Source of the DNA: Kaistella yonginensis
Lineage (GTDB): Bacteria; Bacteroidota; Bacteroidia; Flavobacteriales; Weeksellaceae
Assembly: GCF_030409525.1 (NCBI RefSeq)
Contig: NZ_JAUFQB010000022.1
Location: 1-64,000, forward strand
Reading direction: 5' to 3'
DNA length: 64,000 nucleotides
The position numbers and the translations under genes are program-made. Positions within the stretch are counted from its first letter, which is position 1. Every line of letters starts with the position of its first letter. The notes under the pieces were generated by a model. The model had not been told where the DNA came from. It searched no databases and saw only the letters and a program-made list of their open reading frames with translations. Below, piece after piece: positions 43,838 through 45,516 of the stretch.

Positions 43838-44398
43838 TTAATTAAAATCCAATTTAAAAAGATCATCTAATTCCTTAAGGACTGGATTTATTTCGGCAAA
43901 TTTATCGAAAATCTTTCGTTTGGTAACGATTTCTTTTTTCATGCTAAAATCTGCCCGATAGTCTATATTGATGTTATAATGATTGACTTTGTGCATAAAG
44001 TGATTGAAAAATTCGGTTCGTATTTTTTCAAATTCTCCTTTTGCAGATTCTGAAGGATACGTAACTTCCACAATATCTTCCGTTTTTTTCTGAAGGGTAA
44101 AAGAATTGATTGCATTATAGATAATGATATCTTTCGGTTGCAGTTCGGCCAAGAATTTTTGCCACTCGATTTTTAAATCCGTTTCACTAAAATGTTGACT
44201 CGGCAAATTTTTCTGCGTTGAATCAATGATTTGCTCAGGTTCTTCTTCAGATTTTTCTAAAGCAGCACTGATACTGAATGGAGAAGATTTTTTTGGTTGA
44301 CCCAAAGGAACCGTCGTTTTTTGAACAACTTTTTTGATTTCCTCTGGTGTTTCGATTAAAGTTTCTTTAGGTATTTCTTTGGTAGGAACCTTTTTCAT
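43838..44398 (-). CDS. dnaX: DNA polymerase III tau C-terminal region (in the -1 frame of dnaX)
   Basis: Not an independent gene in my reading. Its frame is open without a stop from the internal ATG (44396-44398) back to the A10 tract at 44439-44448, where a -1 shift from the upstream dnaX frame enters it. The 186 residues consist of a Lys/Glu/Pro-rich linker (about 1-75) and a C-terminal domain (TDLKIEWQKFLAEL...TLQKKTEDIVEVTYPSESAKGEFEKIRTEFFNHFMHKVNHYNI) of the kind that ends DnaX tau and binds the replicase core. Joined to the N-terminal part it gives a tau of 559 residues. Confidence 0.8.
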   Translation of the reverse strand: MKKVPTKEIPKETLIETPEEIKKVVQKTTVPLGQPKKSSPFSISAALEKSEEEPEQIIDSTQKNLPSQHFSETDLKIEWQKFLAELQPKDIIIYNAINSFTLQKKTEDIVEVTYPSESAKGEFEKIRTEFFNHFMHKVNHYNINIDYRADFSMKKEIVTKRKIFDKFAEINPVLKELDDLFKLDFN

Positions 44399-44430
44399 TA
44401 CAGGAGCAGTCCTAAGAAACGGCGCTAAAA

Positions 44431-45516
44431 TCAGATGCTTTTTTTTTTAGAATCTGCCGTGTTTGCAGATAAAGAAGAAAGTTGCATTAACGCGATTTCT
44501 ACGGTCAAACGTGGATTCTTGGAATTTTTATAGTTAATGTCTGCATGATTGCAAATCTCAACGGCATCCACCAATTGCTGCGCATTCCACTTTTTACTTT
44601 GGTCTAAAAATTTGGTTTTTGTTTTTTCTCCCACCTCAATTAAACTGACCGTTTGTGGATTTTGAGCCATCATTAAATCTCTAAAGTGGCTTCCCAAACC
44701 GGCAATAAAAATATGGGGATCAAAACCTTTTTTAATGATTTCATTTAAAGCAAACAAAGTTTCAGAAATTTTATTTTCATGCGCTAAATCTACAATGGAA
44801 AGATATTGTTCGTAATCCAGAACATTTAAAACTTCGGCTGCTTTTGCCAAAGTGATATTCTTCTGTGAAAAAGTAGAAAGTCGGTCGAAGATCGACAGTG
44901 CATCACGCAATGCTCCATCTGCTTTTTGTGCAATTAAATAGAGTGCATCATCTTCATATTGGATTCCTTCTTTCTCGGCAATTTTCTTTAAATGAAGTTG
45001 AATATCCTCTATGGTGATTCTCTTAAAATCATAAATTTGGCAGCGCGACAAAATGGTCGGGATGATTTTATGTTTTTCGGTGGTCGCTAAAATAAATATG
45101 GCGTGTGCGGGTGGTTCTTCTAAGGTTTTCAAAAACGCATTAAACGCCGCTTGAGATAGCATATGAACCTCATCAATGATATAGATTTTATATTTCCCAA
45201 CTTGAGGTGCAAAACGAACCTGGTCGGTCAGGTCCCGAATGTCATTAACTGAGTTATTGGAAGCCGCATCGAGTTCGAAAATATTGTACGCGAAACCATC
45301 TTCTGAGGTAGAACCGTCTCGCTCATTGATTTTGCGTGCGAGTATTCTAGCACAAGTTGTTTTACCCACTCCTCTTGGTCCGCAAAAAAGTAAGGCTTGT
45401 GCTAACTGATTTTCTTCAATGGCGTGTTCCAGTGTTTCTGTAATATGACCTTGTCCCACAACAGTATCAAACTCTTGCGGACGGTATTTTCTTGCAGAAA
45501 CCACGAAATTTTCCAT
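44431..45516 (-). CDS. dnaX: DNA polymerase III subunit gamma (dnaX, zero-frame product)
   Basis: Clamp-loader ATPase. 361 aa: a RPQEFDTVVGQ N-terminus, Walker A GPRGVGKTTCARIL, DEXX-box IDEVHML, sensor 1 ATTEKHKI, SRC arginine finger in PTILSRCQIYDF, and a lid and domain III to about residue 350. The four zinc-binding cysteines of enterobacterial DnaX are missing (the region is KINERDGSTSEDGFAYNIF). Reading in frame ends at TGA two codons after an A10 run (KKKSI stop), giving a gamma-like product; a -1 shift extends it to tau. A TATTTTTG element lies only 4 nt upstream of the ATG. Confidence 0.93.
   Translation of the reverse strand: MENFVVSARKYRPQEFDTVVGQGHITETLEHAIEENQLAQALLFCGPRGVGKTTCARILARKINERDGSTSEDGFAYNIFELDAASNNSVNDIRDLTDQVRFAPQVGKYKIYIIDEVHMLSQAAFNAFLKTLEEPPAHAIFILATTEKHKIIPTILSRCQIYDFKRITIEDIQLHLKKIAEKEGIQYEDDALYLIAQKADGALRDALSIFDRLSTFSQKNITLAKAAEVLNVLDYEQYLSIVDLAHENKISETLFALNEIIKKGFDPHIFIAGLGSHFRDLMMAQNPQTVSLIEVGEKTKTKFLDQSKKWNAQQLVDAVEICNHADINYKNSKNPRLTVEIALMQLSSLSANTADSKKKSI
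44439..44448 (-). other. A10 slippery tract in dnaX (frameshift or slippage site)
   Basis: Minus-strand mRNA reads TCT, ten A, GC, ATC, TGA. In frame 0 this is Ser-Lys-Lys-Lys-Ser-Ile-stop. Backing up one base gives Lys-His-Leu-Ile-Leu-Ala-Pro and runs on with no stop into the tau region. A10 is long enough for RNA polymerase slippage and also contains A-AAA-AAG-type slippery heptamers. Downstream there is only a weak AGGA / TCCT stem and no clear Shine-Dalgarno stimulator, which favours transcriptional slippage (inference). Confidence 0.75.

Follow-up and report, generated by a model that had tools for sequence, protein, structure and literature searches.

The dnaX Locus

The 64,000-nt window, by which we mean the whole stretch of Kaistella yonginensis DNA that was analysed, carries on its minus strand a gene divided between two reading frames. 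The zero frame (44431..45516) encodes a predicted gamma protein of 361 aa with AAA+ clamp-loader domains; this N-terminal piece scores 391 bits against the dnaX_nterm model TIGR02397 (cut-off 250), matches the clamp-loader domains of Pfam, and is matched by the E. coli gamma/tau chains in the PDB with an E value of 1.7e-59. Near its end lies a run of ten A (44439..44448, minus strand; T10 on the plus strand), which supplies three Lys codons and the A of a Ser codon. The predicted gamma C-terminus reads Ser-Lys-Lys-Lys-Ser-Ile-stop, and the TGA at 44431..44433 follows the tract by two codons, AGC and ATC. The frame at −1 relative to the N-terminal frame is open from A10 through to a TAA at 43840-43838 and holds the tau C-terminal part (43838..44441, minus strand, about 200 codons). 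By simple arithmetic, one extra A or one re-read base yields a fusion of 559 codons. The +1 frame, by comparison, meets a stop after 8 further residues. The sequence-only reading had described dnaX with these same coordinates and lengths, from the 361-aa product and A10 to the stop two codons on and the 559-codon −1 fusion, and all of them are confirmed here.

The two pieces cover different parts of PRK14971, a model of 614 positions: the N-terminal piece covers positions 1-371, and a C-terminal ORF of 186 aa covers positions 444-613. Both fall under the whole-protein cut-off of 685 bits; the C-terminal piece reaches 43.5 bits, as a fragment of a split protein would. The latter has no match in Pfam, and a scan of defence families gave none either. 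With the N-terminal ATPase domains and the C-terminal tau extension both present, the gene is dnaX, which encodes DNA polymerase III gamma/tau, and it is the one strong dnaX match in the genome.

The dnaX A10 is the longest of the 29 A/T runs of at least 8 in the window. Genome-wide, 30 overlapping A10 matches represent 26 distinct tracts, and only two of these lie in a stop-to-stop frame of more than 250 codons read in the A sense: dnaX and a second locus, L194, where 19 codons separate the tract from the frame's open end. A further five tracts lie in A-sense frames of 216-247 codons. We also note two loci of this genome (L183 at C44:20578 and L188 at C55:9681) in which T10 stands on the T strand deep inside long open frames, of 882 and 892 codons stop to stop with one side being the locus end; their 10- and 12-nt flanks are the same and their 20-nt flanks are not identical.

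Conservation of the Split Gene

Does the split belong to the gene or to the assembly? We found dnaX in all 36 congeneric genomes, 11 of which are single-contig, and in every one of them a tract of 9 to 12 A stands at the junction (A9 in 2, A10 in 17, A11 in 16, and A12 in 1). With the exception of one congener, G030, whose zero frame runs for 562 codons, the zero frame is short (362-377 codons, counted from the preceding stop); 293 of 296 genomes gave a match, and among the matches listed only G030 has a frame above 400 codons. Tau is in −1 in 34 of the 36 congeners, L032 and L116 differing in frame, and likewise in all 14 other sampled members of the window's family. Where A11 occurs beside A10 relatives, the change is often a base substitution adjoining the tract, with the frame kept.

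An error in the homopolymer, behind which dnaX would truly be uninterrupted, could be suspected of a single assembly of 63 contigs given that homopolymers are error-prone, and errors of this kind may account for isolated exceptions in other genomes (G030, G021). The sequence-only reading had named this as the point to exclude, and had proposed comparing tract and stop in Chryseobacterium and Kaistella relatives. That comparison rules out sequencing error as the general cause because the split is conserved in congeners: 35 of 36 are split at the same site, A10 to A12 vary by frame-keeping base changes, and the named isolates of Chryseobacterium lathyri and Halpernia humi are split too. We consider error in the window itself extremely improbable. 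DNA-level phase variation or decay of dnaX is just as remote. Slipped-strand mispairing can mutate long homopolymers, and L032 and L116 do differ in frame within the genus, but the other 34 congeners share one frame state though most pairs are near synonymous saturation, and the genome holds no second strong dnaX match. Moreover, with pairs of dS outside 0.1-1.5 left out, median omega is 0.025 for the gamma part (60 usable of 630 congener pairs) and 0.138 for the C-terminal part (39 usable of 630); the C-terminal part is under purifying selection. The window dnaX is a real, conserved two-frame gene, and a split dnaX looks like the normal state in the window's family.

Re-initiation is another route by which both parts could be expressed, as gamma and a separate C-terminal protein with no fusion needed. 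In the window, an ATG lies 14 codons inside the C-terminal frame, but only 6 of the 36 congeners have one within the first 30 codons of that frame, and the fusion is encoded directly in 140 other loci of the survey described below. We rejected the re-initiation start as not conserved, and this route is very improbable.

Tract and Tau Frame across the Bacteroidota

The survey comprises 294 Bacteroidota dnaX loci (36 from the genus, samples of the family, order and phylum, 80 named loci, and three follow-up genera), two of which are identical duplicates of others across the compared stretch. An A run of at least 8 lies near the gamma/tau junction in 263 loci, 176 of them with A10, and is absent from 31. 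Taking as the tau frame the longest open frame past the longest A run at codons 325-415, tau is in the zero frame in 140 tract loci, in −1 in 113, in +1 in 9, and uncalled in one (L209, at a contig end). Uninterrupted relatives free of the homopolymer, the finding that the sequence-only reading had set against itself, did not turn up: the 140 uninterrupted loci retain the run. Even dnaX genes of 60-66% GC keep A9-A10, although Lys outside the tract is mostly AAG; the Lys codons of L288, for example, are AAA twice and AAG 23 times.

How often has the frame changed? On a FastTree tree of the N-terminal protein only (291 loci, 261 with a frame state), on which counts of changes are approximate, frame state requires at least 36 changes, where 50 shuffles average 91, and tract presence requires 15. 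Once 29 leaves that cost one change each are dropped, 9 changes remain, each of them between 0 and −1, and the nine tau +1 loci, every one a lone leaf, are among these 29. Within family f2, tau is in −1 in all 8 sampled genomes of genus g34, and in genus g35 it is in the zero frame in 27 of 30, in −1 in two, and in +1 in one. With respect to individual +1 loci, L126 (G382) lacks two bases just past the tract relative to its congeners, and the missing bases are not in the run itself, unlike those of a typical homopolymer error; L043 and L116 (A9) could be assembly errors.

Stops in the Non-tau Frames

The two frames that do not lead into tau close early. In 207 of 232 loci neither stays open beyond 10 codons, where 65.7 are expected from other positions in the same genes; with later loci added, the figure is 237 of 262. 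The +1-of-zero frame considered alone reaches a stop within 10 codons in 125 of the 140 tau-0 loci (75.0 expected), in 107 of the 113 tau −1 loci (65.0 expected), and in 32 of the 34 tau −1 congeners (19.0 expected). At shorter range the frames differ: of the 140 tau-0 loci, 122 have a stop in the first 3 codons of the −1 frame (43.0 expected), and the +1 frame shows no enrichment at that distance (32 of 140 versus 33.7 expected). These counts include related sequences and are inflated by relatedness.

Candidate Signals around the Tract

What else might direct a change of frame at the tract? Downstream, the 36 congeners have no consistent fold (mean z −0.66 and −0.46), and over the longer span, +1 to +60, z falls below −2 in 6 of them; we dropped a downstream stem-loop as stimulator, there being no consistent signal in the genus. 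Similarly, SD-like tetramers lie upstream in 9 of 36 congeners and in 0 of 14 other members of the window's family, and an SD-like stimulator was rejected on these counts. Elsewhere such an element occurs in 12 of 16 f2 loci, in which the GGAG is part of a hairpin, and in 31 of 69 named loci. Finally, an in-frame A_AAA_AAG is found in none of the 36 congeners.

Upstream of the tract the picture depends on lineage. The window has a possible, weak nascent-RNA hairpin of 6 bp, with 6-nt arms and a 7-nt loop, 3 nt upstream of A10 (44452..44470, minus strand), which ranks at percentile 0.18 within the gene and has a synonymous z of −0.4. In the window's genus, upstream hairpins with a stem score of at least 6 are about as frequent as chance predicts (2 of 36 versus 1.4 expected), and none occurs in the 14 other members of its family or in the 11 f40 loci. 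Across all lineages, such a hairpin is found in 80 of 259 loci where 12.4 are expected. It is concentrated in the newly fetched g35 loci (28 of 28, 1.8 expected), in f2 (12 of 16, 0.9 expected), and in the named loci (24 of 69), with lower counts in other loci of the class (2 of 18, 0.6 expected) and of the phylum (3 of 29, 1.0 expected); in the AT-rich f45 it is present in 5 of 6 (0.8 expected). As a general feature of dnaX the upstream hairpin was rejected, being confined largely to g35, f2 and the named loci.

In g34 (8 of 8) and g35 (30 of 30), a hairpin with a stem score of at least 6 precedes the tract by only 0-1 nt. The 29 distinct 20-mers drawn from 67 loci have 232 pair cells; 165 of these pair, a level reached by 0 of 2000 column shuffles. 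This test is indicative only, since it takes for each locus the spacing that gives the most pairing and its shuffles disregard relatedness. In L036 and L124, the two partners of a hairpin base pair have changed together. Outside g34 and g35, we note hairpins of 10-11 bp lying 0-1 nt from the A tract in L093, L063 and L206, with arms unlike those of the two genera.

Discussion

What is the basis of two-frame decoding in the window dnaX? The gene is most likely programmed for two products, and we propose that it is probably decoded by programmed transcriptional slippage on A10. RNA polymerase would slip on the tract and produce mRNAs with 9, 10, 11 or other numbers of A. The templated 10-A message would give gamma of 361 aa, one A added or two lost would give tau of 559 or 558 aa, and one A lost would give a gamma-like product of 367 aa. 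Such a population of tract lengths would allow either product to be made from any DNA frame, and the mix would provide the clamp loader with both short and long subunits. The identity of the gene, its frames and stops, their conservation and the selection on the C-terminal part are observed; the slipping itself, the ratio of the products, and the role of gamma here are what we infer.

Several observations favor slippage. First, both non-tau frames stop early, including the one that is closed to a −1 ribosomal shift, since a single such shift cannot reach frame +1 of zero. Second, the tract is kept in every congener and in most loci of the phylum, even at 60-66% GC. Third, g34, with tau in −1, and g35, with tau mostly in the zero frame, share a hairpin flush with the tract. 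The sequence-only reading had leaned toward slippage, and the length of the tract, the lack of a conserved downstream hairpin or SD in the genus, and the stops in the frame beyond a −1 shift bear it out; the +1 states do so in part, as they are found in nine loci, all of them lone leaves. Against slippage stand the 31 loci without the tract, the 6 congeners with a downstream z below −2, and the chance level of the upstream hairpin in the genus.

The chief competing explanation is a programmed −1 ribosomal frameshift at A_AAA_AAA within the tract, which would lead to tau from an mRNA that keeps its templated 10 A; in relatives with tau in the zero frame, the same shift would give gamma, as in E. 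coli. This is consistent with tau lying in −1 throughout most of the genus and the rest of the sampled family, and with the presence of an in-frame A_AAA_AAA in every A run of at least 9. Two further observations weaken the case for slippage: the clade-level changes of frame are only from 0 to −1 or back, so that a −1 ribosomal shift could serve too, and in the tau-0 loci only the −1 frame has an excess of stops in its first 3 codons, the pattern expected of a signal directed to −1. In addition, the account in PMC5009743 of the two-frame dnaX of Chlorobium phaeobacteroides mentions potential E. coli-like stimulators. However, the tract has 9-12 A whereas 7 suffice for a ribosomal shift, no stimulator is conserved in the genus, the +1-of-zero frame closes early as well, and tau is in +1 in nine loci, if these lone leaves are real. 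Likewise, the motif missing from the congeners, A_AAA_AAG, is described in the same source as far more shift-prone than A_AAA_AAA in E. coli. We regard ribosomal frameshifting as unlikely here, while giving it more weight than re-initiation, error or phase variation.

How does the window compare with known systems? In Thermus thermophilus, dnaX is decoded by transcriptional slippage on A9 (Larsen 2000, as cited in PMC1088944 and PMC5009743; the gene is also described by Baranov et al. 2005, PMC1088944). The window resembles this case, as far as these accounts describe it, in having a homopolymer of about nine or more A between the gamma and tau parts, nearby non-tau stops, and two expected products. 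The difference is one of direction: Thermus DNA encodes tau in one continuous frame and slippage gives gamma, whereas in the window it is gamma that the DNA encodes and tau that slippage would yield. The continuous tau frame is, however, present in the 140 tau-0 loci. Two-frame dnaX genes with A10 have been known since 2013, when Antonov et al. reported 17 two-ORF dnaX genes drawn from 12 genera; nine of the genes have 10 A, and transcriptional realignment was put forward as the mechanism (PMC3711429). The window is of the same kind as that cluster, its tau too being out of frame in the DNA, so that a −1 transition at A10 is required; the cluster is given with one direction in the part of the paper that describes it, whereas the Bacteroidota loci have tau in 0, −1 and +1 within one phylum. 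The E. coli dnaX, in which a −1 ribosomal frameshift relies on A_AAA_AAG with an upstream SD and a downstream stem-loop (as summarized in PMC3711429 and PMC5009743), is similar in that gamma and tau arise from one gene at Lys codons, but neither the SD nor the stem-loop is conserved in the window's genus and the A_AAA_AAG is missing. The g34 and g35 hairpin, which precedes the tract by 0-1 nt, recalls the nascent stem-loop-dependent slippage of a Roseiflexus IS (Penno 2015, via a figure legend in PMC5009743), with the difference that in the window's genus a hairpin is found in only 2 of 36. In the portion of a 2012 review that treats the subject, most other bacteria are said not to maintain dnaX frameshift signatures (PMC3290774). 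The titles and abstract openings listed, all of open-licence papers and so weak evidence of absence, describe neither phylum-wide changes of dnaX frame nor a hairpin flush with a dnaX tract.

More broadly, we can imagine Bacteroidota dnaX as frame-agnostic: slippage would feed all frames, and the frame of the last third would be near-neutral because polymerase slippage supplies every downstream frame. It would then have moved between 0, −1 and +1 on many occasions, with the tract, the stops and, in one family, the hairpin being kept. To us the case for and against this broader reading is evenly balanced, in part since the clade-level states are only 0 and −1. According to papers on F. johnsoniae, the anti-SD is sequestered in ribosomes of the Bacteroidia (as outlined in PMC9976891), and a 2025 paper notes that prfB frameshifting there is low (PMC12421855). 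A sequestered anti-SD may be a reason why slippage of the polymerase, and not of the ribosome, was retained. In practical terms, gene finders that assume a single frame would label such dnaX genes truncated or broken. If slippage is confirmed, the phylum would offer a set of natural variants, differing in template frame, tract length and hairpin but expected to make the same two products, in which one could test how much gamma and tau cells need and if neutral drift of a coding frame is possible.

Finally, three loci of the survey depart from the usual arrangement. In L239 (G448, a 0.34-Mb contig), whose genome, judging by its size, is probably that of a reduced endosymbiont, the dnaX open frame has only 346 codons and no long downstream frame was called. 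L217 (G450) has one in-frame TAG within the N-terminal part of its dnaX match. The 0.6-Mb genome of L244 (G498) carries a run of 16 A at the dnaX junction, and other small genomes of its group have A7-A11 with tau in frames 0 and +1.
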